DNA from: Desulfovibrio sp. UCD-KL4C
GTDB taxonomy: Bacteria > Desulfobacterota > Desulfovibrionia > Desulfovibrionales > Desulfovibrionaceae
Reading direction: 5' to 3'
DNA length: 64,000 bases
Assembly (NCBI RefSeq): GCF_006210265.1
Contig: NZ_VCNC01000003.1
Span: 248,001 to 312,000 of the forward strand
The translations under genes and the position numbers were made by a program. Shown here piece after piece: positions 43,952 through 63,937 of this stretch (its first letter is position 1; every line of letters begins with the position of its first letter). The notes beneath the pieces are model-generated. The model saw nothing but the letters and a program-made list of their open reading frames with translations. It had not been told where the DNA came from and made no database searches.

Positions 43952-43995
43952 AAAATTTCTCTATAGAAAAGCAGTAAAATGTGACGTAAATGTTG

Positions 43996-45084
43996 CTAAA
44001 GTGTGCCTAAATCCATGAATTTTAGGCATGCGTTAGTCGCTTTATCAAAATCCACACCACCGCTGATTTCAATGAGTGTCGTCTTAGAAAGTATTGCTGC
44101 GTAGTGATCAATGTCAGGATCTTCTATTTTGTCACTCGAATCCGGCAGGTAGAATAGTCCTGTGCTTTTCATGAAAGCTGGGAGCAGATCTTTACGTTCT
44201 ATAGGATCGACAATTTTAATGACAGTTTCGCTGTTATCCCTCTGCCAGTTTAAAATTACCAATCCATTTAGCGGTCCGCGCAAAATAAATTTGTTTTTCC
44301 CGTAACATTCATCAATCAGGGCATCATACTTATGCTCAAGGTTCCATAACTCTGTTTGCGTAAGGGACAGGAATTTTTCTTTATCATTTTCAGCAATAAT
44401 GCGTGCAAGATCGGGGTTATTTAAGGCTGTTCCCGGGTTGATTCTTGGCTGTTTTGCAACTCCGTAGACAGTTACTTGAGAGTCATTGTCTTCGATCATA
44501 ACTCTGTCATTGCTGATAAAGGTAGTTCCCTTGCTCATTAAATGGAGGGCTAGAGTTGATTTTCCCATTCCTGAGAATCCCGCAATAGCAATCCCCCGAC
44601 CGTTTTTTATAACGCCGGCAGCATGGCCTAGTAGACAACCCTGATTGAGCTTATATTCAATAAAGCGGTTGTTGATGAAATTGATGACCTGATTGGAATT
44701 TTCAATGCATGGACCTAGAGCAATATTACCGCCGCGTCCGAAAGCGAAGATCATTCCAGTCAATCGTTTGTAGACAACTCGTCCATCTGCAAGATCTGCG
44801 TGCTCTTCTTTTATTTTTACTTTGCCTTGGTCAGGCTCTTTAACGATATATTTAAGTCCAAGGTCAGCGGGAGGGCATTCGTGTGCCGTGATAAGTATAT
44901 CGCCCTTTGTTCCTGCTATCAGGAATTCTTTAAAATAATTTTTGAGGTCTGCAAGCAGATCTTCACTGTTAACTTTTGTTTCAATAACGCAGCCGCCGAA
45001 ATCAATGAAAAGAGATTTTGCTGCTGGAAATTCTTTGCGATATTTTTCAACTATTTCAGTTTGTGTTAAACTATTTTTATTCAT
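43996..45084 (-). CDS. GAK-system HprK-related kinase
   Basis: A 362-residue protein of the HprK-related kinase B type. The P-loop GFSGMGKSTLALHLMS is at about 169-184, preceded by GHAAGVIKNGRGIAI and followed by FISNDRVMIED, as in HPr kinase. It should phosphorylate a protein or small-molecule partner; no HPr gene is seen here, so the partner is probably another product of this operon. Its start codon overlaps the stop codon of the ATP-grasp gene, which indicates translational coupling. Confidence 0.87.
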   Translation of the reverse strand: MNKNSLTQTEIVEKYRKEFPAAKSLFIDFGGCVIETKVNSEDLLADLKNYFKEFLIAGTKGDILITAHECPPADLGLKYIVKEPDQGKVKIKEEHADLADGRVVYKRLTGMIFAFGRGGNIALGPCIENSNQVINFINNRFIEYKLNQGCLLGHAAGVIKNGRGIAIAGFSGMGKSTLALHLMSKGTTFISNDRVMIEDNDSQVTVYGVAKQPRINPGTALNNPDLARIIAENDKEKFLSLTQTELWNLEHKYDALIDECYGKNKFILRGPLNGLVILNWQRDNSETVIKIVDPIERKDLLPAFMKSTGLFYLPDSSDKIEDPDIDHYAAILSKTTLIEISGGVDFDKATNACLKFMDLGTL

Positions 45085-45956
45085 TATTTTACCTTCTTAA
45101 TTACATAATCTGCGTACATGGACGCAGCGTCTATCCCACGCGCATCAAGCAATCCTCTGAATCCTCCGAAGGCCGAAACTTCGAAGATGAAAGGCCCGTC
45201 GTCTGTTAAGGCTACATCAACGCAGGTAAAGTCCAGATTGAACAGAGATTGAGCCTTGTGGGCAAGTTTTATTATTTCTTGTGGTGGATCAAAGGGAGCG
45301 TATTTTCCACCGTTTATTGTAGTGGTGTTCCATGCATTGTTTGTTTTACAGCGAGCATATGTTGTCACATATTTTCCGCCTAAGAAAACGATCCCGAGAT
45401 CACTGTCTTTGAGATCGATAGTTTTCTGGATGTACATGGTTTTATATTTTTTGCTGTATTTTTCGATAGTCTCGCGGGCTTGCGGGTTTGGTTTAAGCAC
45501 AAACATGCCGCGGGCCTTGGTGCTGTAGAGTGGTTTAAAAACGGCTTCACCGTATTCGTCCACTGCAGCAAGGGCATGGTCGACATCTTCGGTGATAGTT
45601 GTAGGCGGCATGGGGATATCGCCAAGTTGTAATGATATTGTGCAAGTCAGTCTGTCCAGTACCCTTAATATGCTATAAGGGGATGAGAATATTTTAACTC
45701 CACGTCCTTCGAGCATGCGAAGCATTTCAAGACGATCAAGCAGGTCTGGTGAATATTGTTTGCCGATTTTTTTTATGATGATTGCGTCAAGTTCTGCAAG
45801 ATTAACTCCGTCGACAACAGCCTTACCGGAAGGAAGGTCAAGTCGCACATCCTTCATCTCGAAGAGCATTCTGTCCTGACCTGTTTTTTGGGAGACAGCA
45901 TCAGCCAGTTGCTCTGAAGACCAAGCTCCCTTAAGCCCGATTACTCCTATTTTCAT
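45084..45956 (-). CDS. GAK-system ATP-grasp ligase
   Basis: A 290-residue ATP-grasp enzyme related to RimK. The N-terminal domain is MKIGVIGLKGAWSSEQLADA; the nucleotide-binding and grasp segments are EAVFKPLYSTKARGMFVL, YIQKTIDLKDSDLG and LDFTCVDVALTDDGPFIFEVSAFGG, shown in part, with the Glu/Asn-type metal site near FIFEVSA. RimK-like enzymes join a carboxylate to an amine through an acyl-phosphate, so amino acids or peptides may be added to an operon protein. I start at ATG 45956, where AAGGATA lies seven bases upstream; an alternative ATG at 45977 overlaps the preceding stop codon. Confidence 0.87.
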   Translation of the reverse strand: MKIGVIGLKGAWSSEQLADAVSQKTGQDRMLFEMKDVRLDLPSGKAVVDGVNLAELDAIIIKKIGKQYSPDLLDRLEMLRMLEGRGVKIFSSPYSILRVLDRLTCTISLQLGDIPMPPTTITEDVDHALAAVDEYGEAVFKPLYSTKARGMFVLKPNPQARETIEKYSKKYKTMYIQKTIDLKDSDLGIVFLGGKYVTTYARCKTNNAWNTTTINGGKYAPFDPPQEIIKLAHKAQSLFNLDFTCVDVALTDDGPFIFEVSAFGGFRGLLDARGIDAASMYADYVIKKVK

Positions 45957-45976
45957 AGTATATCCTTTATGTTGCA

Positions 45977-47629
45977 TTAATAATGAAGAATGTCTTCAGG
46001 CAGTGTGAAATTATCCCAACTTCCGCTGTAACGGTTAATTTTTTCAAGGAGAAACATTGAGCGATTAAACATCTCTTTTGCAAATCCGTAATTAAATTCA
46101 AAACGAGTTGAAGTGTAAAAGGATCGAACCAGTGCGAGCGTCAGCCTTGCCTTCCATGTGGGGTCGTTGTTCTCAGCCGCAAACTCTTCCGCAAAGCTGT
46201 AGAATCTGGAGATTACCACGTTTATTTTATTCCGTATCGGCCTGTCGAATATGGGCATGCGGAAGCACGATACTAGAAAAACAGAGATGTCCTGAATGTA
46301 ATCAAAGTTTCGGGATCTGTAGAGATCAATAAATCTGATCCGTTCATCTGCATTGCTGTAAACAACATTATTGCAGTTGAAGTCCCCATGGATAAAAACA
46401 GTGAATGGAGCTGGCAGACCATGTTCAGCAGATATTGCTTCATCAATAAGCTCCGCTGAGGATATTATTTCTGATGATCCAAGTGATCTGGCATGACGGT
46501 TAAACTCGGGATGAACCTGCAGTACACCGGCCTGACGGGATTTAAGCTGTTCCATATAGTTGGTTACAAATGGGCCTTTTTTGATGGTCGTTGTCCAAAT
46601 ATTTCGCAGTGACTGTTCAAGTGTGAAAAGACCGTTTTCAAGGTCCACATCGTCAGAGGTGAGGATCATTGTATCCAATGTACAGCCCGGTAAAAATTCT
46701 ACCAGCATTGAGGCTTTATTTTCCGCAGGGGTTTCGTGGTAACCGAAGATGTCAGGAACTCTTCCGGGAAACATTTTGTTCCAAAGCTTGAGGTTGTCAC
46801 GCTCAGCCTTAATTTTTGCAAGATTGCCTTCTTTATAGATGCTTCCTTGCGCAACCGGAGGTCCGTTTTCCTTGTCTTTTGCCTGTACATGTCCAATTCT
46901 GCATCCTGAGCGGGAGCCCCATATTCCTTGAAAATCGATGTCTGAAAAGGAACCGTCAAAGCCTGAAACAGTCAGAGTATGTTGTAGTGATTCAAATTGT
47001 TCAATCTTGATACGTTCGCCCAAAATGGAGAATATGATTGCTTCGCCTATGTTAAGAAGTGAGTCTCCGATTCTTTCAAGATAGCGGAATATAAATAAGA
47101 CTGTAACTAAATCAGGAATATTTTTACCGCTTCCCATTTCAGCCATAATACGGTTGAAATTGTCTTTATAAAGGGAATCGAGGTTATATTCGGATTTACA
47201 GATTGCAAGGGCTAAGGGCATGTCCTTGTCATCAAATCCTTTCTCTATTGAGGCCGTCGTTGTTTCTATTATATCAAAAGCTTCAGGGCTTTCGAATCTG
47301 TTAACAAAAGATTTATCCTCAAGGTAAGCCATCTGGTTAACTATGTTGACACAGTAGTCACCGATTCGTTCAAGATTGACGGATGCTAATTGTATGGCTC
47401 TTATTTTGTTAAGAGTATTGTCGTCGAGTTGAGTATCTTTGTTTATACGGGAATAAGTTTTGTTTTCGATGATTGTTTTTAAGTTATCAATATAATCGTC
47501 ACGTGAAGTGATCTTACGGAAGAGTGAACGCGATGGGGAATTGACAAAATTTCGAGTCGCAGCAATCTGATTTTTAACTTCAAGCACAAGAAATTTAAAA
47601 TTTTCGTCTAAACCTTCAAATGTCAGCAT
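45977..47629 (-). CDS. GAK-operon PhoU-aminoglycoside-phosphotransferase-like fusion protein
   Basis: A 550-residue cytosolic fusion. Residues 1-215 are a PhoU-like helical domain with two matching repeats, LERIGDYCVNIVNQM near 86 and LERIGDSLLNIGEAI near 184, carrying the ExxxD metal motifs. Residues about 235-550 are an APH/choline-kinase fold with the catalytic loop FIHGDFNCNNVV (414-421) and metal Asp in RFIDLYRSRNFDY. PhoU domains bind metal and regulate phosphate uptake; APH domains phosphorylate small molecules or proteins. The start lies two bases after the amphi-Trp stop, and the stop overlaps an ATG of the next gene. Confidence 0.85.
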   Translation of the reverse strand: MLTFEGLDENFKFLVLEVKNQIAATRNFVNSPSRSLFRKITSRDDYIDNLKTIIENKTYSRINKDTQLDDNTLNKIRAIQLASVNLERIGDYCVNIVNQMAYLEDKSFVNRFESPEAFDIIETTTASIEKGFDDKDMPLALAICKSEYNLDSLYKDNFNRIMAEMGSGKNIPDLVTVLFIFRYLERIGDSLLNIGEAIIFSILGERIKIEQFESLQHTLTVSGFDGSFSDIDFQGIWGSRSGCRIGHVQAKDKENGPPVAQGSIYKEGNLAKIKAERDNLKLWNKMFPGRVPDIFGYHETPAENKASMLVEFLPGCTLDTMILTSDDVDLENGLFTLEQSLRNIWTTTIKKGPFVTNYMEQLKSRQAGVLQVHPEFNRHARSLGSSEIISSAELIDEAISAEHGLPAPFTVFIHGDFNCNNVVYSNADERIRFIDLYRSRNFDYIQDISVFLVSCFRMPIFDRPIRNKINVVISRFYSFAEEFAAENNDPTWKARLTLALVRSFYTSTRFEFNYGFAKEMFNRSMFLLEKINRYSGSWDNFTLPEDILHY

Positions 47630-50586: not shown

Positions 50587-50958
50587 GTTCCACCTTAAGT
50601 TTTTGATTGAGTGCAGATTCTCAGAATTACTGCTTTGTATCAAGCAAATTAAGTCATTATGGAGGGAATAGTAAATAAAGTTTTGAATTAGAACTATAAA
50701 TTTGTAGACTGATCAGTAGCTAGTCGTAATTTTTATTCTTATGTCTGGATAATTTTGGCTAGTTGATTTTTTTGGCACTAATATATAGTATAATCTATAA
50801 ATAAAAATTGATTATTTTAAGTTGACCTAATGTTTAATTGATAATATTACGCTATACAAATAATATGTTAGTTTATTAAGTTGTAATTTCAGCATTATTT
50901 ATGGATTTTAACAACTCATATAGGTTTAACGTTATAAAGAGGTTGTGTGGGGAGAAGG
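50587..50958. other. Divergent intergenic region between HD gene and vWA operon
   Basis: About 370 very AT-rich bases without a gene. They hold a candidate promoter for the vWA-tubulin operon (50822-50850) and a leader of about 100 bases before the vWA start. No clear hairpin or operator is seen. Confidence 0.5.
50822..50850 (+). promoter_or_regulatory. Candidate sigma-70 promoter of the vWA-tubulin operon
   Basis: TTGACC (50822-50827) and TATTAC (50845-50850) are separated by 17 bases, about 110 bases upstream of the vWA start. The -35 box is strong and the -10 box is moderate; the AT-rich context allows chance matches. Confidence 0.4.
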
Positions 50959-53613
50959 ATGAATTCAAGAAAATTTCATACATGTTTGCTCTTGCTTATA
51001 ATTGTCTTAGGGGTTGCATGTCCCGTACAGGCGCGAGTTGTAACTGTTGTTTATGATGATTCTAAAAGTATGTTTGGCGGTTTCACTCTTAATAAATTTC
51101 ATTCAAAGGTCACCGATCGATGGGTATACGCCAATTACGCTCTTCAAACTCTTGCAGCCCTTATGCACAAGGAAGATAAATTATATGTTGTAAGAATGAA
51201 TGCCTTTAATGGGAAATCTAAGTCAGAAAAGAAATCTGCAAAGGTTGTAAAGTATTTGGGAACAGAAGTGCCAGAAGCTCTGAGCGATATTATGAGTTAT
51301 GGATGCGGACTATCTACACCGTATGGATCCGTTCGTTTTGCTGTTGATTGTTTTCTTAATGCTACAGATAAAACAAATAATAAAGGTAAATTCAATGATA
51401 CTCCGCTGAGAAGAGTTAAAGAGAAACGTAAGGATTGGTTGATCATAATTACTGATGGATCGTTTGATAGAATGTCTAGTAATCTTTCTCAAAAAAAGGA
51501 TCATTTTTTAAAAGATATTGCTGAAGATGTTGAAAAATATAAAGAAAAAACAGGAAAAGATAGCAGGGTAATTTTTTTACTTATCGGATCAAAACCGGAT
51601 AAAAGTCTTTACAATAAATGGAGAAAAGTCGTTGGCGGGCATGTGGAGGAACTAATAACTGTACAGGCCGCAGAAGGTGGTAATGGTATTCTTGATGCAA
51701 TGAAAAAAGTTGCAGCTATAATTGAAGGGCGCGATGCTGCCGAAGATAAGTTTCGGCCTAATTTTTCCGGTGATATATTTGAATTTGATTCACCATATCC
51801 ACTGCGTCGCGTCAGTGTTCAGCAGCAAGCCGATGGTATTAAGAATTTTTCAAAGCCTTATATTCTTATATTACCGGACGGAAGCGAAATTTCTTTTAGC
51901 CACTTCGAAATTGAAAGTCCCCATAAAACTAAAATAGTAACATTATTCGGTCAGAAGCTTGAAGAACGTAAAGCTCTTGATATAACGGGGGTTATTTCCA
52001 CAGCGGGCAGCAATGAAAAAGTTATGGGAGCTGGAATTTATCAAATATATTGTCCGGGTAATTTTACAGATTATACAATTAAAAATCTTCTAATTGAAAC
52101 ATCAGTAAATTTTAAACCTATGTTGGAAGTTAAAGGTATTGGAGCTAAAGATGAAAATAAAATCAATGGTAGCTATGATCTGTGCAGAGATGATGAAATC
52201 AGGTTTCATGTAAAATTTTCAGATTATAAAAGTAAACAGACTTTGACTTTTAATGAGGATCAAGCTGCGAAAATTGATGTTTATATTCTAGACAGTGATA
52301 TGAAAAAGCTTGGGGGATCATTTGTCTATGATGCTAGAACAAATGAGTTTATTTCAAATTGGCAAAGTGTTTCATCTATAAAAGGAACTCCTGATCTAAA
52401 AGAAATTTCAATCAGAGCTGTATCCCATGGATATTTTGATCTGAAATCAGATATATTCAAAATTAAAGCACAGAAACACACACGTAATGTTACTGCAACG
52501 TTAACTCCTTCAGCGATTAATGTTATATATAATTATTGCGATACACCTAAAGAAGTGGCTTCAGTTTCTGTGAATTTATCTAATGTACGGAACAAAAGCA
52601 GAGTAAAGTTTATTGCCAGAGATATTCCAGAAGGAATAACTATAAGTTCACAAAAAAAATCAGCTTCAACAGGTTACTCCGCTGAGGCGATGTATTCAAC
52701 AGAATCTCCAGTTACTATTTATTTGTATAGAGATAAGCATTTTATCCTTCCTGCTCCTGCTGAATTTTCCTTAGATATTCAGTTCCCCGATGACTCCGCA
52801 TTAAGAATTACTAACGCGAATACAAGAATTAAGATTATACCGCAAAAACGAAATATTAAGTTTGTACCTGATAGAACGGCTTGGAATTGCAGTGTTGTTG
52901 CCACGCAAAGTGTTTCTCCACTGATTTTGCGGCTTAGTGAAAATGGTAATCCTGTCGATTTAAATAAAGAAAATTGGTCAGCTAATACGCACTCGAATGG
53001 AGATGCTGTTTTCTTATTAAGTCATAATCCTGATCTAGGCGGAGCTTATGCCTTGACGCCTGATTTCGGTTCACTTGTCCCTCCATTACCGGCATCAGCT
53101 GGGGAATTTCCTGTTCAAATTAACTGGCTAGGACCGTTTCCAGGTGAAAAGTTTTCATCAACAGTGGTGTTGTCAATGCTCGATACTGATTTGTGGACTA
53201 AATATAAGTGGTTTGCAGTTTTGGTTTTAATATTTTTTTGCGTGGTTTGGTTCCTCTGGAGGTTATTTACGAAGAGAAGATTTTCAAGGAATGCCCAAAT
53301 TAAGTTTAAAACAATTCGTAGCGGTGTACCTCCCCGAGTCCAAACAACTTTTTTGAGGAAGAAAGGGATTGGTATTTTTTTAAGCAGATGGCTTTGGCCG
53401 TCAACCTCAGAAAAAATTAATGTCAGGGGAGTGAGTTTTAAAGCAGGAGATAATTCTGCAAGCATTATTATCGCTAGAGGCAGTCAAAAGAAGACTATGT
53501 ACATGCACGGTGTTCCTCTGGATTCTCCAGGGCAAAGAGACCAAAGCCTGACGCGCGGTTCCGCTATTGAAGATCGCGGAGACTATGTAATTAAAGAATA
53601 CTATTACAAATAG
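50959..53613 (+). CDS. Exported single-pass von Willebrand factor A protein
   Basis: An 884-residue protein. A signal peptide (MNSRKFHTCLLLLIIVLG, cut near residue 25) is followed by a vWA domain of about 210 residues with the metal-site pattern DDSKS (VVYDDSKSMFGG) and IIITDGSFDRMSS. Residues about 250-740 are beta-rich and probably Ig-like. One membrane segment (WFAVLVLIFFCVVWFLW) lies near 751-770, with a basic 114-residue cytosolic tail. So the vWA domain is periplasmic and the tail can contact the cytosolic partners. Start ATG 50959 has GGGGAG upstream. It is first in a four-gene operon, 18 bases before the tubulin-like gene. Confidence 0.85.
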   Translation: MNSRKFHTCLLLLIIVLGVACPVQARVVTVVYDDSKSMFGGFTLNKFHSKVTDRWVYANYALQTLAALMHKEDKLYVVRMNAFNGKSKSEKKSAKVVKYLGTEVPEALSDIMSYGCGLSTPYGSVRFAVDCFLNATDKTNNKGKFNDTPLRRVKEKRKDWLIIITDGSFDRMSSNLSQKKDHFLKDIAEDVEKYKEKTGKDSRVIFLLIGSKPDKSLYNKWRKVVGGHVEELITVQAAEGGNGILDAMKKVAAIIEGRDAAEDKFRPNFSGDIFEFDSPYPLRRVSVQQQADGIKNFSKPYILILPDGSEISFSHFEIESPHKTKIVTLFGQKLEERKALDITGVISTAGSNEKVMGAGIYQIYCPGNFTDYTIKNLLIETSVNFKPMLEVKGIGAKDENKINGSYDLCRDDEIRFHVKFSDYKSKQTLTFNEDQAAKIDVYILDSDMKKLGGSFVYDARTNEFISNWQSVSSIKGTPDLKEISIRAVSHGYFDLKSDIFKIKAQKHTRNVTATLTPSAINVIYNYCDTPKEVASVSVNLSNVRNKSRVKFIARDIPEGITISSQKKSASTGYSAEAMYSTESPVTIYLYRDKHFILPAPAEFSLDIQFPDDSALRITNANTRIKIIPQKRNIKFVPDRTAWNCSVVATQSVSPLILRLSENGNPVDLNKENWSANTHSNGDAVFLLSHNPDLGGAYALTPDFGSLVPPLPASAGEFPVQINWLGPFPGEKFSSTVVLSMLDTDLWTKYKWFAVLVLIFFCVVWFLWRLFTKRRFSRNAQIKFKTIRSGVPPRVQTTFLRKKGIGIFLSRWLWPSTSEKINVRGVSFKAGDNSASIIIARGSQKKTMYMHGVPLDSPGQRDQSLTRGSAIEDRGDYVIKEYYYK

Positions 53614-53631
53614 GTAACTACGGAGGTTGAT

Positions 53632-56600
53632 GTGGATTTCAATACAGTTCCTACGCTTCTTATTGGTTTAGGCGGAATCGGTTCACAAGTCGTTGATATG
53701 ATCTATGGAAAAATTCCTTCGAGCATGCACGATAGAATTGCTGTTCATGCTTTTGATACCAATATTAATGATATTGAAAAATGTTTTAATTTGAGAAATT
53801 TAATTACGCAGACCAGCACGAACTGGACTGTTGGTAATTATTTAGAAATTGCTGATAGTTCAGTAAATGAATGGTTTCCAAGCGATATTAGAGAGCTTAA
53901 ACGTAAACTTTTAACTGATGGAGCAGGCCAGGTCCGATGTGTTTCTAGGTTGGCATATCGTGCTTCCATTGATGATGGTAAACTTGAGAAGCTTCGTTCG
54001 CAAATTCGAGATATTTTTCAGGCACGCGGCGACAGGGCTATGCCGAGCGTCAGAGTTATGATTGTAACCTCTTTAGGCGGAGGAACAGGGTCTGGTATTT
54101 TCTTGCAAACCGCTATGTATGTCCGCGATATTTTGACTCATGAATTTCACAAAAATGCAGTGCTGGTCCGCGGTGCTTTTTTGCTTCCAGATCCTCTGAT
54201 ACAGAGCGGAGTTCTCGATAAAAATCATCACGAAAACGTTCGTGCTAATGCTTATGCCAGTCTTAAGGAACTCAATGCCATAACGATTAATGCCGGTTCT
54301 GACAGTAACAAACATAACGGAGCTACTATTGAGCTTGAATATAAGCCTCGTCAGGTAGATATCAACGGTAGGCAGTCTCATGTTGTCACTGATATGAATC
54401 TCCCTTTTGATTTTTGTTTTTTATATGATTTTGAGAATGAAAGAGGAGAAAATCTCAAATATCTGGATAATTATATTAATCAGATGGTCAAAACTATTCA
54501 TCTTCAGCTTTTTTCTCCTATCAGCGGTCCTTCATTTTCCGAAGAAGATAACTTCATTCTTGGATTGGTTAGCGAAAACGGGCTTAATCGTTACTGTGGA
54601 GCAGGTGTTGCTTCACTCGTTTATCCTTACGATAAACTTGTCAGATATTGCGCTCTGCGTTGGGCTGATGAAAGCTTTACCAGCGAATGGCTGAGGCTTG
54701 ATAAAGAGTACGACGAAGAGCTTGAGCAATACGAAAGAGACAGGCAAGCCGGGGTAAACGGTGAGCGTCCTAAAATTGGAAAGAGATATATCTCTCTTGT
54801 TGATAATTATGCAAAGGACAATAATCCTGATCCATTCTTTTTAAGTATACATGATGCTGTTCATATTCCAGGTGCGAGAGCAGTAGATATAAAGCCCCGT
54901 TCACAGTTATTTCTTGAGAATGTAGAGAAGCTGATTGAGCAGATTGTTAAGGATGATGTGGATCTTAATTATATGGAGCAGGAATGTATCCTTGATGATG
55001 GCCGACTTAAAAAAATCGATGATGCTGTCTCTGAAGTTGAGGATATGGAGGGACATCTTCTAGCTTATCAGCGTCAGGTTTTTGTTTCAGTACGTAGTCA
55101 TAAAAGTTTCATTATCAATCAAGCTATAAGAAGTGGATATGATAAAGTAAGTACTTCAGAATATAATCTGAGTTATTGGATGCTCAAACGACCGACGCCT
55201 CTTCATCCAGTTGCAGTACGTTATGTCTTGTACAGTTTGGAGGATAAGCTGGATTCCAATCTGAAAAAAATTCGTGAAGAAATCAGTGCTGTTGAAAAAA
55301 GTATCGATAACTATAAACAAGCTTATAATCTGAGTTCCAGAAGAGATGTTGTTGAAACAATTGAAGACAGGTTCATGGCTATTGAAAAAGGGTCGTGGTT
55401 TTCAAGAGTCTTCGGTGGCAAGTTAAAACTTTTAATTAATGAGTACAAAGAAAAGTCCTCCAGACAGCTCAATGCGCTTAATGTATATAGATTAATAAAG
55501 CTTAAGGAACTGGTTTATGAAGAGTTATTAAGCTGTGTGCGTGATCTTTTAAGAGACTGGAAAGATTATTTTGATCAGTTGCGCTCTATTAGAATCGGTT
55601 TGCAAAAAGAACTTAGAGATTGTGCGAATGAGAATGAACGTAATCAAGATTCAATGAATGTTTATATACTTGCATCTGTAGAAGATAAGGAAAGTATGTG
55701 GAATGAATTACGTACTTCAGTTGCAAGAAGCAGTGAGTTGCCTCCTGATTTCCTAGAGAAAATTTATGACGATAGGTACAAAAGATTTTGTGATAATCAT
55801 TTCGGTGCGAACCGGGAAAGATACTCTAGAGGCAAAAATTTCGGAGAAGAGATTGTCTCATGGTGTGAAACTGAAATCAAAAGGTCAGGCCGCTTAAGCT
55901 ATAACATCCTCGACGCCATTACTGAAGAAGCCCGCTCCAGAAATATTGATAATGATGCCCATTTAAAAGAACGGATTGCAACTTTGGGTCGCCTTGCTTC
56001 GCCTTTCGTGCCTGAAATTTCAAAAGGACAAGTTCAAAATCAGGAGTATTGGGGAATTAATTCCAGTACGCTCAGCAGCTATTCAGAAGATTGGATTAAA
56101 GACAATTTCGGAGGAGTCAGCAGGCTTGTGCGTGACGATTCTTTTTCAGAAACTGAACTGATTAGGTACACTGCTAGATATGGCTACCTAGCCTCTGATT
56201 TTACCAAATTTAAAGCTTCTGCACCGGGGTCAAGTATGGGAGATGGTTCATACCATACGGCCTATATGCGTAGAATTAAAAAGATTGTTGCCGGTGGAGA
56301 AGCTGTTACCCCACATTTAGATAAACGTTGGCATCTCCCTGCATACATGACTGATCTTAATAGTATTACAGGAGAAGGTGATCTTAAGATGAGCGATGAA
56401 GCGTTCTTGCTCGGGTTAGTCTTTAAGCGCTTTGTAAATCGGACTGAAGGTCGAAGATCACTATGGGAATGTCATACAGAAGATAGTGTTGGAAATGAGA
56501 CTATTAAGCTGGTTTACAAGGGGGGGGCACCTGTCGTCGGCGGTTTGTATGATTTATATGAGGCTCTCCCCCATAACCCTGGATTGGTTAATTCGATATC

Positions 56601-57006
56601 AGATTGGGCTAATGCAGAAATAATCAAACTTCCTTCCGAACGTTCAAAAAATAATGGGGAAATTTCTTTCAGTAAACGAAATGTCCAAATCGGCAAAAAG
56701 AAAGTCACTATTCTGGATGCTATAGCAAGTTTTGTAAGTGAAAGGCCCACAATGGCTGAAGCTGAGCTTGAAAAAATAACCGTAAACCTTATCGGTATCC
56801 TGTTTGATTTGATTCTAAATGCAAAAGAATCCAAGAACGGCAAAACATCCCAACTCAAAAATGCGTCAGAAACTCTACAGGAAATTAATGATCTTTTACT
56901 AAACTCATCAATTTACTCTGAGTTTATATCTGATGGTACTCGTCTAGCTCGAAACTGGAATGTAAAGGTTCAAAGTTATGAGAAAAGTTTAGAGAACTTC
57001 CTTTAG
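53632..57006 (+). CDS. Large tubulin/FtsZ-like GTPase (Tubulin_2 type)
   Basis: A 1124-residue cytosolic protein. The N-terminal domain has LLIGLGGIGSQVVDMIYG (nucleotide-binding loop) and the tubulin signature SLGGGTGSGIF at 148-157. The rest (about 300-1124) is alpha-helical, with coiled-coil stretches near 520-640, and is far longer than FtsZ. It probably forms GTP-dependent filaments or an oligomer. The GTG start at 53632 has GGAGG upstream. It lies between the vWA and two-TM genes and is probably the cytosolic organising protein of the operon. Not FtsZ or TubZ, since it lacks their compact two-domain layout. Confidence 0.82.
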   Translation: MDFNTVPTLLIGLGGIGSQVVDMIYGKIPSSMHDRIAVHAFDTNINDIEKCFNLRNLITQTSTNWTVGNYLEIADSSVNEWFPSDIRELKRKLLTDGAGQVRCVSRLAYRASIDDGKLEKLRSQIRDIFQARGDRAMPSVRVMIVTSLGGGTGSGIFLQTAMYVRDILTHEFHKNAVLVRGAFLLPDPLIQSGVLDKNHHENVRANAYASLKELNAITINAGSDSNKHNGATIELEYKPRQVDINGRQSHVVTDMNLPFDFCFLYDFENERGENLKYLDNYINQMVKTIHLQLFSPISGPSFSEEDNFILGLVSENGLNRYCGAGVASLVYPYDKLVRYCALRWADESFTSEWLRLDKEYDEELEQYERDRQAGVNGERPKIGKRYISLVDNYAKDNNPDPFFLSIHDAVHIPGARAVDIKPRSQLFLENVEKLIEQIVKDDVDLNYMEQECILDDGRLKKIDDAVSEVEDMEGHLLAYQRQVFVSVRSHKSFIINQAIRSGYDKVSTSEYNLSYWMLKRPTPLHPVAVRYVLYSLEDKLDSNLKKIREEISAVEKSIDNYKQAYNLSSRRDVVETIEDRFMAIEKGSWFSRVFGGKLKLLINEYKEKSSRQLNALNVYRLIKLKELVYEELLSCVRDLLRDWKDYFDQLRSIRIGLQKELRDCANENERNQDSMNVYILASVEDKESMWNELRTSVARSSELPPDFLEKIYDDRYKRFCDNHFGANRERYSRGKNFGEEIVSWCETEIKRSGRLSYNILDAITEEARSRNIDNDAHLKERIATLGRLASPFVPEISKGQVQNQEYWGINSSTLSSYSEDWIKDNFGGVSRLVRDDSFSETELIRYTARYGYLASDFTKFKASAPGSSMGDGSYHTAYMRRIKKIVAGGEAVTPHLDKRWHLPAYMTDLNSITGEGDLKMSDEAFLLGLVFKRFVNRTEGRRSLWECHTEDSVGNETIKLVYKGGAPVVGGLYDLYEALPHNPGLVNSISDWANAEIIKLPSERSKNNGEISFSKRNVQIGKKKVTILDAIASFVSERPTMAEAELEKITVNLIGILFDLILNAKESKNGKTSQLKNASETLQEINDLLLNSSIYSEFISDGTRLARNWNVKVQSYEKSLENFL

Positions 57007-57067
57007 CGCTGATATTTGTTTGGGCTTATATACAAGACATCTTATTCAAGAATAAAGGGGACTGTCT

Positions 57068-59212
57068 GTGCATACTGTTGTGCTTGATTTGTATGGTGAG
57101 ATACCATCTATGGCTGAATTCAAACCCTTTTTGTATCCGTTATTGTCTTCCAAAGAACTTAAATTGTTTTGGGAAGAACGTAACTCTGAAAACCCAGTTA
57201 ACTACGAACTCAGCTATAGAAAGCTCTTGCAGCATTTGCGCAGGTTCTCTGTAAATAATTGGCATCTGATAATTGTGCTTGGTGTTTCGGAAGAGACTAG
57301 CAGTTATGATGAAAACGAGAATTTATGTGCAGGCTCACTTGCTGACCAAATTACAAAAGTTCAAAACTCTTTGATTGCGCGTCTCAGCGGTAAAATGGTC
57401 CCTATGCGTGTAAGTTATATTGTCGTTGACCCTCTCAGTCGTCAGGGACATACAAATGCTCCTATTGATAAGAAAGATAAGTCCTATCTGCATTGGGAAA
57501 TGGATACTTGCGGTTACACTTCATCAAATAATATTCCATGTACTTTTCGTGAGCAGGACATCAAGGATCTTGAAGAATTAAAAGCTGATATAGATTTTAG
57601 TAAAGAGACAACAAGTGAAGGTTTTGGAGGGCTGAGCAGTGATTTGCGAGATACGCTAACAGCTTGTTGTGAAAAATATATTGAGTGTGTTTCTTCTGCT
57701 GTCTGCAGGGTCGCTTGTGAGTTGGAAGATCAGTTGGCAGCAAGTCGGGGTGTGAATATATATTCACGCGATAAAGAATATCTATCCATTAAAAAAGCGT
57801 TAGCTATTGAGACTAATTTTGAAGAAACTCTCTGGTCCAGAATACAACTTGATCCTGAATCTGTGAACAGTCTCAGGCCGGAAATAATCTTTAAAGAGCT
57901 TTTATATGATTATTATAGTGTTAACGGAATTATGAATGAAAGAAGTTGCTGTGTCAGAGTACGGCAGGCTGATTTTAGTGCTCCACGGCATGATTCAATA
58001 CAGTTTAGAGTTGGAATTATGATTCTTCTGCTTCATGAAATAGGGGATGACGGCAACATGCTGGGTGCAAAAAGTTTTCTCGCTTTAGGAAATAGTATTG
58101 ATGTTAACACTGAATTGGCCGGCAATATGATTGATCGCTACTTGCATGCGCTCGAAGTCGCTAAGGACTCAGTAAAAATTGATAGTACGCGTGCTATACA
58201 GGGAAGCTTCACTTTGCAGCGTACTCCTGAAGTTCATTTGGAAGAACCTAAAGTTCTAGAGCTTCCTGTATTCCCCACAACTATTTCTTTCGTGGATTGG
58301 AAGGCTTGGTGGGAAGAAGTAAATTCTTCTTTAGCCTATGAGAAGGATCAATATAAAAAATTAGATAAGGAAAATGTTTTTTTACTTAAACGAGCTAATA
58401 AAAATATTGAAACGGTGGATATTGATAATATTGAAACCGCTTTGGAGAAATTCAAAGAAGATAGTGAGGCTATGAAGAAGGTCGTAGCTAATAAGGAGTA
58501 TTTAGATTTTAGTGTGAGCTGGAGGGCGGATACAAAAGACTTAATCGATAAGTTGAAATATAGAATAGAGATTTTTTCAGGAAAAAGATTACTTTTTTAT
58601 TATGGGTCTATTGCTACTTTTTTTGTCATACTTATGCTTTTTTTGGGTGGAGGAGGTGGGTATCAGTATTACATGCTTAGCTGGGGAGTCCTTTCGCTTT
58701 TGACCATGGGCATTTGCTTGTTAGGTGCTAAAATAAAATTAAAGCGTGTTCAGGATGCGTTAAAAGCAAAAGCAAGTGCTTGTAAGAATGATTTAAGCAA
58801 AATTTTAAAGGGGAATACAGAACATTTGAAAAAGCAGTGTGAGTTTTCAGCTGTTGCCAATAATTATCGTAAACTTTCTAAAGAAGTTAATCACGAGCTC
58901 CGCTTGAAAAGTTTAATTTTGTATCATGCTAATAAAATTGCTGATCATATTGAATTAATGCGTCCTTTGGCTGAGATATGGAAGGCAGAGGAACCTATTC
59001 TTAATTCAGATGAATTTGCAGATAAAATTTTCTATGATCGCCCTGTTATTGACAATTTAATATATTCACCATCCACCTTTATTCCTGATGCTGCTTCATA
59101 TCGTTTGGTGGTTAAACATGGACTTACGAATCCTTCTGTAACTTATTTCCCGTTCGAGTTGGTTGAGCTGGAAGAAGACGGGATGTTTGAAGGAGGAAGA
59201 AAAGATGTATAA
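57068..59212 (+). CDS. Large hypothetical protein with two membrane segments and coiled coil
   Basis: A 714-residue protein that I do not recognise. The N-terminal 500 residues are soluble and start MHTVVLDLYGEIPSMAEF, with a predicted alpha/beta part (HLIIVLGVSEETSS, VSYIVVDPLSRQGH) and a helical part up to 500. Two membrane segments (about 508-526 and 535-554) are joined by a short glycine-rich loop. The C-terminal 150 residues are charged and helical, then a beta-rich end (VVKHGLTNPSVTYFPFEL). A GTG start has AGGGGA upstream. It overlaps the next gene by eight bases. Confidence 0.72.
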   Translation: MHTVVLDLYGEIPSMAEFKPFLYPLLSSKELKLFWEERNSENPVNYELSYRKLLQHLRRFSVNNWHLIIVLGVSEETSSYDENENLCAGSLADQITKVQNSLIARLSGKMVPMRVSYIVVDPLSRQGHTNAPIDKKDKSYLHWEMDTCGYTSSNNIPCTFREQDIKDLEELKADIDFSKETTSEGFGGLSSDLRDTLTACCEKYIECVSSAVCRVACELEDQLAASRGVNIYSRDKEYLSIKKALAIETNFEETLWSRIQLDPESVNSLRPEIIFKELLYDYYSVNGIMNERSCCVRVRQADFSAPRHDSIQFRVGIMILLLHEIGDDGNMLGAKSFLALGNSIDVNTELAGNMIDRYLHALEVAKDSVKIDSTRAIQGSFTLQRTPEVHLEEPKVLELPVFPTTISFVDWKAWWEEVNSSLAYEKDQYKKLDKENVFLLKRANKNIETVDIDNIETALEKFKEDSEAMKKVVANKEYLDFSVSWRADTKDLIDKLKYRIEIFSGKRLLFYYGSIATFFVILMLFLGGGGGYQYYMLSWGVLSLLTMGICLLGAKIKLKRVQDALKAKASACKNDLSKILKGNTEHLKKQCEFSAVANNYRKLSKEVNHELRLKSLILYHANKIADHIELMRPLAEIWKAEEPILNSDEFADKIFYDRPVIDNLIYSPSTFIPDAASYRLVVKHGLTNPSVTYFPFELVELEEDGMFEGGRKDV

Positions 59213-62200
59213 TTTTTTACCGTTTATTATTGGTTTTGTGGGGCTTGTAGCCGTGTGGGCTTTTTCTTTACCACGCAATAGGCGTTATAGAATGCGCCCA
59301 TTAGTATATCTCATTTTGGGAATTACAGTCTTTTTTTATGCCTTTCTGAGAATTTTTCCCGAAATTTTAAGTAACTTAGAAGAAGTACTCGGAGATAATT
59401 TTCAGAGTAAACAGATTCTTATTTTGTATTTTAATGCCGGTTTTATCGTAATCTTTGCTGCGTTTATGGCTTTTGCAAGAGCTGGTGGCTGGGCATGCCG
59501 TAGAGTTATACGTTCTCAGAAAAAGTCGCTAATCTTTATAAAGTTAAAAAAAATATGTCTAAATGACGCATTCACTGATGACTATTCGCGGTCAAAAGAA
59601 AAAAGAATTCCTTTTGGATACAGAAAAGGGCTTCAAAATAAAATTCTGATGAATCCTGAATTTAAAATATGGGGAATATTTCTTAACACTCTGGCTCTCT
59701 TTTTTATTATAGCATCAGTTGTTGCACAAATAGTTTCCACGCAGGGGCTGCTTGAGTCTACGGTCCTTAAGTATCCTGTCCTATTGACTTTAACATTCAT
59801 GATTACCGGACTTTATTTTTCAGGAACCAGTAAAGAGAATCGCACAAAGTTTACAAGTGAGGATGGTTCAGGCGGACTTTCCGGTAAATGCGGGGAACTG
59901 TATGACTCAATCGGTAAAGTTTTCCGAAGTAGTATTCTATTTGCAAGTGGCTTAACTAGCAGTAAATCCAAGTATTTTGCAGACCAGTCTTCACTGATAA
60001 CTGATCAGCGTTTGGTTGCAATCATAAGAACTACAAAAGAATATTTTCCATGTGGATTCAGTGAAATGCATAGAAAGTTGCTTGAGGCTTTATGGAGGGG
60101 GGAAGATTTGCTTGTTGTATCTGGAATGTATGATGAAATATCTCCCATCCTTTTTTCAGGTGTTCAGTATGATATACAACGGCTTAATCGGATTGTTGTC
60201 TTTACCAGCTCTCTACATGGCTCTAGGCAACGGCAGGAGGAAGAAGCATGGCTGAGCCGTTGGCTTGAAGATGGTTCTGTTTATTCCAAGAATGCAATTG
60301 CAATGGTCGGATTTGAAAATTTTACTGGTCAGGAAGATGTTCTAATAACCAGTCCGCATGAACTCCTGCTGAAACGCTTAGATTCTGAAACTGTAAAGGA
60401 ATGGGTCGAGCAGGTTAGTAAGATTATAGTGCTCAATATAGATGAAAGTGTTTTTTCTAATATTCTTCCTGCCGCATCAATTCTTAGAATTCTTCGTGAT
60501 ATTTGCGGAGAAGATTTACAGATGATTTACCTTACAGACGATTATGATGCTTCAGTGAAAGTTGTTGCCAGAGCTTACCTTGGCGGACATCCTGAAAAAT
60601 ATACCTTCAGGGGTAAAAAACCTAAATCATACTGCTATAGGTTTTTTGATCAAAATGATTCCAGTAATTATCTTACAGCTCATGGAGGGGTAAGTGATTA
60701 CGTAGCCCCGGAAAACAGTCTTGCCGCATTTATGTTGGCTTCAGGCGTACATTCAGTTCAGCTGCAAGGACTCAACAACACGGCATGGAATGAGTTTGTC
60801 AGTCGCATGGATGATGTTGAAACGGGGAGCCTAAACAGAGGGGCATACAGCAGTAAGGTGAGAATAAGGACTAGGCCCATGCTTGGTAAAATAAGTGATG
60901 CGGCTATCATTGTTTCACGTGATGATTCGTATAATTTACCTTTGGCTCTTAGTAAGACTCTGGAGGGTGCAAATGATCATCTGATGGCTAATATTTTCAG
61001 TCCCCGTTATTTGCTGCGCGATTATTTCCTTGAATATTTGGATTTTTTTCTGGATAACCCTTTGCAAAAATTAGCTCCTTTACTTAGCAGAGATAAGACA
61101 GGAGTGGCTCTGCTTGTATATGAACGCCTTTTAGTGGAAGAAATGGATGAAAAAAGTATTCGCCAGTTTGTGGATTCATTTTTTTATGCTGATCAATTAT
61201 CTGGAGCTACTGTTGATGACAATCTTCGAGCCGTTTTTGATTATGCATATAATAAAAAGTCAGATATTTCTTCATATTTTACCATCAGGGATGAAATGGT
61301 TTTTGATGATGATGCAAATGATTTCATCCCAGTTGCAAAGTATAAAATTTCACGTCAAATGTCTGAAGACTGGGCAATGGCTCATCGGCTTACTTTTAAA
61401 TTTAAAGATCCCTCAGGAAAAACTATTAAAAAAGTTTTTGGGCATCAGATCGTGCAAAATTGTCTGCCCGGACAGGTCCATTGTTATAATGGAGAGGCAT
61501 ACAGAATATCTTCGATCAATAGAGCTGGTAAATTTGTAAATGTTGAATATGTCCTGCCTGATGACGAAAGAAGCTATCGACATAAAGTTAAAATTGAGTG
61601 TCATGGCTGTAACGAAGTACTTGCTCGTGAAAATGATGGGAAGAGTGCTGGGAGTTATTATCTGAACAGTACTATTGAAGATTGTTTTTATTCCATAAAA
61701 ACAGAAGGTTATTTTGAGTTTAGTGACGGTGTTAATCTTGGAGATAATAAATATAAATACATTCCGATAAGTGATCCATTAACACGCACCATGATTCATG
61801 GCAGACGTTTGCGTTGGGAAATTTCATCGGTTGAGTCACTGCCTCTTGATGTAGACTCAAGAATATCTTTTACATTTGCAATTTTGGTTAAAGAGATGTT
61901 GCAGACTATGTTTCCTGATTTACATCAGTATCTGCATGTTATCCCAGTCCGTCCTCCTGAATTTGTCGATGATCATGTTGCTGAAAATTTACAGTTGGCA
62001 ACTCGTGTATCCGCTTTGCCTGAAGTGGAAGACGTAAATAAAGTCGGTGGTAATTTAGGGGTAGGGATTGAAATTTTTGAAGATTCTATTGTTGATATGG
62101 GACTCTGCAGAGCTCTTGAAGCCAGTAAGTCTCACCTTTTTGAGCTGATAGAAGATTATCTGTTATGGTATGAGAATATTGAGGATAAATCGGATTGTTT

Positions 62201-62972
62201 TTTATGGTATGGGCAGGAGTCAGAGCCTGAAGTGTTTAAGCTTAAGGAATTACGTGAAATTATTTCATCGCTTATTGAGACGCGTCATCAAACAATACGT
62301 AAACGCCGAGAAGCTTTTGCTCGGAGACCAATTGTAAGTGAGAGTGGTGATTCTAAATGTTGTTTCTGTGCATGTCCTGTTTCACCTGATCTTGTGTGGA
62401 AAGAAAAGGATGGCAGGAAATATTGTTATGAGTGCAAGCAGTCTACATGGGTTAGAGATAACGAATCTTACGAACAGCTTCTAGTCGATATTGCAAGTTG
62501 GATGTGCCGTCGGTTTAATTTAGATGGCATAATTGATTCTTGCCATGTTCACATCGTTAACCCTATGACTTTGGCAAAGTGTGTAGGAACGTTATATAAT
62601 CCATGCGTAAAGCTTACTCCGCGAAGTCTTGGCGCGGCTGTTAAAGAAGATAGTGGTGAAATAAAAATTTATATTGAAAACATGATGCCGGAATATATAG
62701 CCGTGTCTACAATTGTTCATGAACTAACGCATGTTTGGCAATATAATAAGCTTGGGGATTCATTAAGTGTTGTTCCGTTACCTGTGATTGAAGGTCATGC
62801 AACGTGGATGGAGATAGCCTATCTTACTGAGAAAGGTATGGGGCATTCCTATGTGCAGCGACTTGCTGGAGCAGATGATATATATGGCAAAGGGTATCAA
62901 CTGATTAAGCAAAAGTTAAACGGTCAGTATGGAGATCCGTTCGAGTATATTAGCAATTTAGTTAATGCATAA
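59205..62972 (+). CDS. Multi-TM protein with degenerate MrfA-type helicase body and DA1-like metallopeptidase tail
   Basis: A 1255-residue protein. Five membrane segments lie near 4-20, 33-50, 71-92, 155-176 and 187-206. Residues about 280-790 read like a decayed SF2 helicase of the MrfA/DUF1998 kind: DLLVVSGMYDEISPIL in place of the Walker A motif (no GKT), VLITSPHELL, IIVLNIDES for DEAH, IYLTDDYD for SAT, and PGQVHCYNGEAYRIS for the family's HPGAVYLHQG segment. A zinc ribbon (C1052-x2-C1055, C1074-x2-C1077) and a metallopeptidase site HELTH (1172-1176) with EGHATWMEI (Glu1196) form the tail, in the same order as LIM plus DA1-like peptidases. ATPase activity is doubtful. Start ATG 59205 has GGAGGAAG upstream. 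Confidence 0.75.
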   Translation: MYNFLPFIIGFVGLVAVWAFSLPRNRRYRMRPLVYLILGITVFFYAFLRIFPEILSNLEEVLGDNFQSKQILILYFNAGFIVIFAAFMAFARAGGWACRRVIRSQKKSLIFIKLKKICLNDAFTDDYSRSKEKRIPFGYRKGLQNKILMNPEFKIWGIFLNTLALFFIIASVVAQIVSTQGLLESTVLKYPVLLTLTFMITGLYFSGTSKENRTKFTSEDGSGGLSGKCGELYDSIGKVFRSSILFASGLTSSKSKYFADQSSLITDQRLVAIIRTTKEYFPCGFSEMHRKLLEALWRGEDLLVVSGMYDEISPILFSGVQYDIQRLNRIVVFTSSLHGSRQRQEEEAWLSRWLEDGSVYSKNAIAMVGFENFTGQEDVLITSPHELLLKRLDSETVKEWVEQVSKIIVLNIDESVFSNILPAASILRILRDICGEDLQMIYLTDDYDASVKVVARAYLGGHPEKYTFRGKKPKSYCYRFFDQNDSSNYLTAHGGVSDYVAPENSLAAFMLASGVHSVQLQGLNNTAWNEFVSRMDDVETGSLNRGAYSSKVRIRTRPMLGKISDAAIIVSRDDSYNLPLALSKTLEGANDHLMANIFSPRYLLRDYFLEYLDFFLDNPLQKLAPLLSRDKTGVALLVYERLLVEEMDEKSIRQFVDSFFYADQLSGATVDDNLRAVFDYAYNKKSDISSYFTIRDEMVFDDDANDFIPVAKYKISRQMSEDWAMAHRLTFKFKDPSGKTIKKVFGHQIVQNCLPGQVHCYNGEAYRISSINRAGKFVNVEYVLPDDERSYRHKVKIECHGCNEVLARENDGKSAGSYYLNSTIEDCFYSIKTEGYFEFSDGVNLGDNKYKYIPISDPLTRTMIHGRRLRWEISSVESLPLDVDSRISFTFAILVKEMLQTMFPDLHQYLHVIPVRPPEFVDDHVAENLQLATRVSALPEVEDVNKVGGNLGVGIEIFEDSIVDMGLCRALEASKSHLFELIEDYLLWYENIEDKSDCFLWYGQESEPEVFKLKELREIISSLIETRHQTIRKRREAFARRPIVSESGDSKCCFCACPVSPDLVWKEKDGRKYCYECKQSTWVRDNESYEQLLVDIASWMCRRFNLDGIIDSCHVHIVNPMTLAKCVGTLYNPCVKLTPRSLGAAVKEDSGEIKIYIENMMPEYIAVSTIVHELTHVWQYNKLGDSLSVVPLPVIEGHATWMEIAYLTEKGMGHSYVQRLAGADDIYGKGYQLIKQKLNGQYGDPFEYISNLVNA

Positions 62973-62993: not shown

Positions 62994-63021
62994 AAGGATC
63001 CAATTATATGATTGGGTCCTT
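62994..63021. terminator. Bidirectional terminator between the vWA operon and LysR gene
   Basis: Arms AAGGATCCAAT and ATTGGGTCCTT pair with one G-T wobble around a six-base loop between two convergent genes. The plus strand continues ATTCTTATA; it should serve both genes. Confidence 0.75.
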
Positions 63022-63049: not shown

Positions 63050-63937
63050 TTATACTCGTATATGCTCTTTATAAAACGTCAGAAAGTTTTCAACCAACGG
63101 TGTTACCCTGTCTGGACTCCAGACCATTGCTACTTCAAGCGGGGCTGATTCAGTTTCGATTTGTTTTAACACAACTCCTTCAGGCATAATGTGTTCTGAG
63201 CCGCAATCAACAAATGTCCATCCCATACCTGCAGCCACAAAAATTGTCTCAGTATGTTTACGCTGGAACTGCATTCCAAGTTTCAGCTTAAGTCCAGCCT
63301 CTTTAAATTTTTTTTGCACTTTTTCGACGCGCCTTTGGGAATAAGCTTCTCTGCTGCAAATATATGGAATAGTAGATAAGTCCTGCAGAGTCAGGACCTC
63401 TTTTTTTGCAAGGTCATGGCTGGCCGGTATTGCAGCGCATGAAAATGTACGCTGTACAATTACATGTGATAAGTCCTGAATGTCTGTAATATTCAGAGTG
63501 AGAAAGCCTACATGGCGCGTGCCATCAATTAAGTTAGTAATCTGTTGCAGGCTTGTCTCATCATGTAGAACTATATCCACTTGCGGAAACTTTTTCATAA
63601 AGTCTCCTACAATATCAGGGAAGGCAGAGGATAGAGTCAGATAGACAAAGCTGACATGAAGTTTTCCGGCTGTCCCTTCGCCCATGGCTTGAAGGGTCGT
63701 TCGAGCTCGTGAATCGTTTTTCAGTATTTCTTTAGCTTCACCTAGAAAATACTTTCCAGCATCGGTTAATTCCACCTTGCGGTTGTTGCGGTTAAACAGC
63801 TGCGTTCCAAGTTCTTCTTCTAATCTTTGAATTTGCCTGCTTAGTGGTGGTTGCTGAATGTGTAACCGCTCAGCAGCCTTACCAAAGTGCAGTTCTTCCG
63901 CCACTGCTTCAAAATAACGTAACTGACGCATTCTCAT
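63050..63937 (-). CDS. LysR-family transcriptional regulator
   Basis: A 295-residue regulator. The winged helix is MRMRQLRYFEAVAEELHFGKAA with ERLHIQQPPLSRQIQRLEEELG, and the co-inducer domain has TAGKLHVSFVYLTLSS and VAAGMGWTFVDCGSEH-like segments. It resembles the regulator at 32 kb but the two differ in the effector domain. It converges on the vWA operon, so it is not an obvious regulator of it. Target and ligand unknown. Confidence 0.9.
   Translation of the reverse strand: MRMRQLRYFEAVAEELHFGKAAERLHIQQPPLSRQIQRLEEELGTQLFNRNNRKVELTDAGKYFLGEAKEILKNDSRARTTLQAMGEGTAGKLHVSFVYLTLSSAFPDIVGDFMKKFPQVDIVLHDETSLQQITNLIDGTRHVGFLTLNITDIQDLSHVIVQRTFSCAAIPASHDLAKKEVLTLQDLSTIPYICSREAYSQRRVEKVQKKFKEAGLKLKLGMQFQRKHTETIFVAAGMGWTFVDCGSEHIMPEGVVLKQIETESAPLEVAMVWSPDRVTPLVENFLTFYKEHIRV

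Follow-up and report, generated by a model that had tools for sequence, protein, structure and literature searches.

The operon considered here lies in a 64,000-nucleotide stretch of the genome of Desulfovibrio sp. UCD-KL4C (contig NZ_VCNC01000003.1, positions 248,001 to 312,000; hereafter the window) and encodes, in this order, a vWA protein, a tubulin-like GTPase, a protein with two transmembrane (TM) helices and a membrane-anchored pseudohelicase–metallopeptidase (genes 1–4; Table 1). We tentatively favour the reading that it specifies a membrane-tethered accessory machine of the FtsZl1–vWA kind, acting as a conflict (antiphage) or envelope-surveillance system. A re-check of the open reading frames (ORFs) reproduced exactly the layout given in an earlier note on this DNA, namely four plus-strand genes, of which the first three are separated by 18 and 61 bases and the last two overlap by 8, with no gene between them; the sole other plus-strand ORF of at least 100 residues in the operon (130 residues) is nested within gene 4. 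The set is more than a chance arrangement, since it is complete at the same site in two further species of the genus, with 53–90% protein identity. The four genes look like one transcription unit.

On its sequence, gene 2 is a member of the Tubulin_2 family, also named FtsZl1, and a predicted tubulin-like GTPase. It matches the Pfam model PF13809 with an E value of 2.6e-61 (208.3 bits against a cut-off of 27; domain residues 9–348), and the GTP-binding loop GGGTG(S/T)G, which had been recognised before as GGGTGSG, occurs as SLGGGTGSG. The usual context of FtsZl1, a vWA gene in the same operon, is provided by gene 1. The N-terminus of the gene 1 protein is hydrophobic and signal-peptide-like at residues 10–28 (as judged by hydropathy and not by a signal-peptide program), and the residues of its metal-ion-dependent adhesion site (D33, S35, S37, T120, and D166) are invariant among 27 aligned members, in agreement with the signal peptide and vWA domain originally proposed. 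A TM helix at residues 745–763 near the C-terminus, with its charged side facing inwards, is followed by a tail of ~120 residues. The protein is thus predicted to carry an intact metal-binding vWA site outside the membrane and a tail inside. No Pfam VWA model reached its threshold with this protein or with the two relatives scanned. More generally, genes 1, 3, and 4 reached no cut-off in Pfam, NCBIfam or PADLOC, and profile searches of solved structures returned no significant match for the vWA protein, gene 3, gene 4 or the peptidase part of gene 4.

Gene 3 comprises an N-terminal alpha/beta part, two TM helices at residues 508–526 and 536–554 (as the earlier note had it) and long helices; the flanking charges place both ends inside. 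All 36 gene-3 profile matches lie directly 3′ of gene 2, in a search that made no use of position. A weak structural resemblance of gene 3 to the tubulin superfamily was favoured by a second-look aligner only and is not seen by profiles, which makes gene 3 doubtful as a clear tubulin. The alphaproteobacterial proteins that occupy the gene-3 slot have no detectable similarity to gene 3, nor do those of Azospirillum and Rhizobiaceae to each other. Taken together, hydropathy and charge topology support the membrane complex proposed in the earlier note, in which the vWA domain faces outwards and the tubulin-like protein lies on the inner side.

Gene 4 opens with four TM helices and a fifth candidate just under the threshold, followed by a large part of ~1040 residues that includes an HExxH motif at residue 1172, which agrees with the multi-TM protein with an HExxH tail described before. 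At least five TM-like stretches (at a threshold of 1.4) were counted in 25 of 30 long relatives, and the fifth helix is required for the large part to be cytoplasmic, as we infer it to be. The predicted fold of the large part matches the MrfA/YprA helicases (Foldseek E 1e-22). MrfA is a repair helicase. At the motif places assigned from the topology of the model, Walker A (motif I) and motif VI are missing in all 32 aligned members. Walker-A-like strings were found by pattern in five of the 32, all at other places. At the place of motif II, three copies from the genus read NIDES or NLDES, and the remaining 29 lack the DE pair. The helicase assignment of the earlier note thus stands as a predicted fold and falls as regards the catalytic motifs. 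An active, membrane-tethered helicase–peptidase of DNA repair, for which the MrfA-like fold and the DE pair of the genus copies would speak, is highly improbable given the family-wide loss of Walker A and motif VI; the window genome also has its own MZB/DUF1998 helicase gene elsewhere. Gene 4 itself has no match to Pfam MZB (DUF1998).

Downstream of the helicase fold, a zinc-finger-like motif precedes the peptidase region, the order also found in DA1. HExxH is present in 27 of 34 long gene-4 copies, and together with the downstream glutamate it is invariant in 22 members, a set chosen for having HExxH. The motif was not found in gene 4 of A. ramasamyi or of loci L042, L061, and L067; in L071 and L075 the gene runs into the edge of the locus. 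In L053 (8066–12289) and L068 (10147–14305) gene 4 is split over two ORFs with HExxH on the second, and two TGA codons lie inside the match in the genome of L053. The HExxH..E arrangement resembles DUF6782/BSP/DA1-like peptidases, with Pfam scores under the curated cut-offs: for DA1 (PF12315) the window protein is unmatched, and the L025 protein scores 14.8 bits against a cut-off of 25. Three of the 22 members reach E ≤ 0.1, with 7.7e-4 as the best value. On the structural model and these motifs, gene 4 probably encodes a TM-anchored pseudohelicase, usually followed by a zinc finger and a predicted HExxH..E peptidase.

To survey the distribution of the operon, genome contigs were scanned with an alignment of gene 2, which yielded 80 loci whose families were called by iterated profiles at E 1e-4 or better; a contig scan that started from the single gene 4 sequence gave no match. 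All four families are present in 30 of the 80 loci. Partial sets comprise vWA, tubulin and gene 4 (five loci); vWA, tubulin and gene 3 (four); vWA and tubulin (13); tubulin, gene 3 and gene 4 (one); tubulin and gene 4 (one); and tubulin alone (26), some of the incomplete loci stopping at a contig edge. Three Ectobacillus genomes and Bacillus sp. 165, which hold vWA and tubulin only, showed no gene 4 genome-wide with profile A2, so a two-gene version exists. A search from the side of gene 4 matched six of 391 Clostridia genomes (the centre, two partial cases, and three more), and all three new loci fetched in this way hold all four genes. The recurrence of the same families in distant bacteria, suggested in the earlier note as a check on its proposal, was therefore seen from both directions. 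Over 28 operons (25 loci in which each of the four genes is a long copy, and the three members from the genus) the family-tree distances correlate with r 0.90–0.96, values of which none was reached in 2000 permutations and to which host relatedness contributes.

Bacillaceae share the gene order of the window, as do nearly all of the Clostridia loci listed; L067 seemingly holds two adjoining sets. In Azospirillum, a Rhizobiaceae metagenome-assembled genome and Methylobrevis, the vWA gene comes last and gene 4 is weakly matched; that of Methylobrevis has no match with profile A2 and was found in the locus by the iterated profile at E 0.0012. As a separate observation, L071, L075, and L085 carry two tandem Tubulin_2 genes, and a gene-4 relative is present in the first two, which may link the present system to the GTPase systems with two tubulins reported by Kaur et al. 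(2020).

Within the genus of the window the operon is accessory. It occurs in three of 17 species, in which the flanking genes P0006 and LysR lie 12.36–12.47 kb apart; in ten species the same distance is 60–241 bases, in one it is 1006 bases, and a close LysR orthologue is lacking in the other three. Genomes G005 and G006 are nearly identical as far as the insertion point. By this comparison of sites, the operon is a clean 12.4-kb insertion; its GC content is 38.0%, against 39.4% for the window ahead of it. Gene 4 is rare in wider samples, occurring in three of 297 genomes sampled from the class, all of them the carriers from the genus, and in two out of 100 sampled genomes of the G106 family, one of them the centre. 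Three further species of the same genus (G003, G010, and G011; loci L016–L018) contain different Tubulin_2 systems, the other genes of which have no BLAST match to window genes 1, 3, and 4.

Table 1. Features of the operon and its flanks, in window coordinates.
Feature	Position	Strand	Basis or remark
Left flank gene P0006, 178 aa	50053..50586	-	HD-like by eye; marks insertion site
Conserved upstream block, possible promoter/operator	50815..50866	+	kept in G000, G014 and G005, surroundings diverge
Gene 1, vWA protein, 884 aa	50959..53613	+	hydropathy, adhesion-site residues (MIDAS)
Gene 2, Tubulin_2/FtsZl1 protein, 1124 aa	53632..57006	+	GTG start; Pfam PF13809, SLGGGTGSG
Gene 3, two-TM protein, 714 aa	57068..59212	+	GTG start; hydropathy, model
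Gene 4, predicted membrane-anchored pseudohelicase–metallopeptidase, 1255 aa	59205..62972	+	ATG start; hydropathy, motifs, predicted fold
Gene 4, membrane part	59214..59840	+	four TM >1.6, fifth at 1.52 (hydropathy)
Gene 4, MrfA/YprA-like predicted fold, residues about 226–1024	59880..62276	+	Walker A and motif VI missing
Gene 4, CxxC..CxxC zinc-finger-like motif	62358..62435	+	motif
Gene 4, gluzincin-type metallopeptidase region (predicted)	62487..62969	+	HELTH 62718–62732, invariant E1196 at 62790–62792
Terminator-like stem-loop 3′ of operon	62994..63021	+	10 such sites in the stretch against 8.2 expected
Right flank gene, LysR-type regulator	63053..63937	-	marks insertion site

The candidate control elements in Table 1 fit a single unit. 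One promoter-like match (50838–50866) falls inside the conserved upstream block, and stem-loops of different sequence stand at the same place after the operon in G014 and G005, as judged by eye. The promoter scan gave 43 matches in total against 39.3 in shuffled sequence, which is not above expectation; since the promoter-like and terminator-like counts are both near the shuffled expectation, the argument rests on conservation. P0006 has no Pfam match. Near the operon, a single minus-strand run at 42764–47629 encodes CofD-like, HPr-kinase-like (just below cut-off), ATP-grasp and PhoU-kinase-fusion proteins, the last three of which are kept in G014 and G005.

The genes next to the operon bear on its possible role. 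In 27 loci the next gene after gene 4 lies within range on the same strand (Pfam was run on one member per group, the others being linked by BLAST). It encodes a coiled-coil FtsK-like ATPase in eight loci, a transglutaminase-like membrane protein in six, and the CARF-HEPN RNase Csm6 in two of three Bacillaceae loci (L025, 19509–20966; L027, 12121–13599). Csm1_B was not found in four genomes searched, including both with the Csm6 neighbour, which excludes that domain only. The 11 single cases include a RyR domain protein (G752), a tetratricopeptide-repeat (TPR) protein in Psychrobacter with NACHT/NPHP3-like matches just below the cut-off and, in L069, a possible RCK channel, also below it; two of the 11 are the vWA gene of the operon itself or of a neighbouring set. 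In 12 further loci there was no next gene in range or the locus ended too soon. L130 has none, and in the window no partner gene follows gene 4.

In some Clostridia, TIR genes cluster near the operon. Among 49 TIR_2 matches in 17 host genomes, at least 17 lie within 15 kb of the operon, against 0.76 expected for even spacing; contig identity was confirmed for the positives and not for the negatives L040, L050, L057, and L062, which makes 17 of 49 a lower bound. The matches are not always separate genes, two of them fall short of the Pfam cut-off, and the distances were computed by hand. This clustering, together with some of the neighbouring genes, lends indirect support to a conflict role. 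Genes for TIR, TIR-methyltransferase, KAP-NTPase-methyltransferase and squalene-cyclase-like toroid proteins recur beside the operon in the Clostridia loci L039, L044, L048, L058, L060, and L073 (Pfam was run on L039 and L044 only). In addition, a different vWA and Tubulin_2 pair on a plasmid of Meiothermus taiwanensis (L021, 8297–16374) lies between a gene for an ATP-binding protein and brxL and adjoins DUF1156 and Swt1-HEPN genes, and is thus inside a BREX-like defence locus.

The tubulin–vWA core of the operon has been published. Operons of vWA and FtsZl1 were described by Makarova and Koonin (2010; PMC2875224), who proposed membrane remodelling or a vesicle or compartment machine, while a reviewer of that paper suggested transport or signalling. 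The present operon resembles theirs in that gene 2 is a member of the family and adjoins a vWA gene, and in its membrane-associated partners and patchy bacterial spread. It differs in lacking the OmpA proteins, protein kinases and P-loop GTPase reported as partners. The main text of the 2010 paper mentions no helicase, peptidase, protease or zinc; families A1–A2 and B1–B9 are in its supplement, and genes 3 and 4 may be among them without a domain name. Tubulin and vWA also meet in the GTPase-centric conflict systems (GAP1-N2) of Kaur et al. (2020; PMC7159879), which share coiled-coil tubulin-domain proteins, an extracellular vWA with a TM helix, a membrane setting and a predicted conflict role. 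Unlike those systems, the operon has no match to a P-loop GTPase, and neither do its Pfam-matched neighbours; the linked GTPase with zinc ribbons is found in none of the four proteins or the eight flanking window proteins, three of which have no Pfam match. Neither gene 3 nor gene 4 is covered in section 29 of Kaur et al. (2020), and the main text contains no mention of DUF1998 or YprA.

For YprA helicases, a role in defence is set out in a 2025 preprint (PMC12458937). The YprA/MrfA helicases and DISARM, Dpd, Druantia, and ARMADA share the predicted fold of gene 4, which differs from all of them in being membrane-anchored, in having lost Walker A and in carrying a peptidase instead of a nuclease. 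The main text of the preprint contains neither tubulin nor vWA, transmembrane or metallopeptidase, a BREX paper (PMC12839542) mentions tubulin and FtsZ nowhere, and tubulin is also absent from PMC11090510. No description of the four-part set was recognised in the literature searched, the coverage of which left out most subscription papers. The earlier statement that no system of this kind had been described thus fails for the tubulin–vWA core and, in the literature searched, stands for the set of four, which appears to be a variant of the FtsZl1–vWA kind with a pseudohelicase–peptidase.

How might such a machine work? If the operon is an accessory system of conflict or envelope surveillance, the vWA protein would sense or bind an external target, either an adsorbing phage or a damaged envelope, and the tubulin-like protein would assemble beneath the membrane. 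The pseudohelicase would bind a protein partner, or nucleic acid that it does not unwind, and this binding would free the peptidase or activate the variable downstream partner where one is present. The window holds no partner gene, and therefore the peptidase would be the effector there. A more specific version is that of an undescribed class of membrane-anchored immune machine, in which the YprA-fold pseudohelicase acts at the inner membrane as a sensor of invading nucleic acid, the tubulin-like GTPase (perhaps with gene 3 as a degenerate membrane-tethered tubulin) assembles the response, the outside vWA domain gates that response, and the metallopeptidase or a swappable partner (Csm6, FtsK-like, RyR or NACHT-like TPR) executes it; this is possible, if doubtful.

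Several observations weigh against a conflict role or against the helicase relationship it draws upon. The relation of gene 4 to MrfA is unconfirmed by sequence profiles (hhalign E 0.025 and 0.085), and the pairwise alignment is no better than shuffles, 187 of 300 of which score equal or higher. The PADLOC 2023 library, with its DISARM and Druantia models, gave no match for the four proteins (ARMADA is newer than the library), and the Pfam-named genes beside the window operon are not defence-like, three of the eight scanned having no match. The TIR signal comes from eight genomes, six of which are close kin (tubulin 78–99% identical), amounting to about three lineages; nine of the 17 genomes have no TIR nearby, and four of these have none at all. 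Moreover, the 17 represent 17 of 23 loci and were picked after TIRs had been noticed in several. We rate the conflict or surveillance reading lower because this choice was not blind and the NACHT and channel matches are below their cut-offs. As for mobility, gene 4 was not found on plasmids by tblastn, the one plasmid relative, found by profile, being on a 645-kb A. ramasamyi plasmid, and none of 140 pattern matches in viral contigs was a relative of the tubulin, so that a phage-borne cassette was rejected. A 9.8-kb faecal record named Bacteriophage sp., which carries vWA and tubulin genes, the latter cut short by the end of the record, is assumed to be bacterial DNA.

The main rival is a membrane-remodelling or vesicle/compartment machine, in which polymers of the tubulin-like protein would form beneath the inner membrane, anchored and trimmed by the other parts. 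This reading accords with the published proposal for vWA and FtsZl1 operons (PMC2875224) and with the TM helices in three of the four proteins, and the commonest next genes, the FtsK-like and transglutaminase-like ones of Clostridia loci, fit an envelope role equally well. The patchy, insertion-like distribution, the TIR clustering and the Csm6 and RyR neighbours argue against it, and it leaves the helicase-fold member unexplained; we regard it as rather unlikely. Third comes a relay for envelope stress or nutrients, in signalling or transport, whereby vWA would bind an outside ligand and the peptidase would cleave a regulator inside. The reviewer's suggestion on the 2010 paper, a TRAP solute-binding gene near the A. 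ramasamyi operon and the channel-like gene of L069 point this way. However, the neighbours listed share no transporter or anti-sigma gene, and the LysR gene beside the operon in the window is found at operon-free sites too, which makes such a relay improbable.

A role for FtsZl1 has been predicted since 2010, and the operon is a compact, four-part version common to distant bacteria. Its helicase-fold protein, membrane-anchored next to a tubulin relative and fused to a protease, appears to have kept the helicase shape without the motor. Should the operon act in phage defence, the tubulin superfamily and the YprA defence helicases would meet in a single machine. If it does not, the operon would still offer a concrete handle on FtsZl1 function and, at only 12 kb, one that is directly testable.

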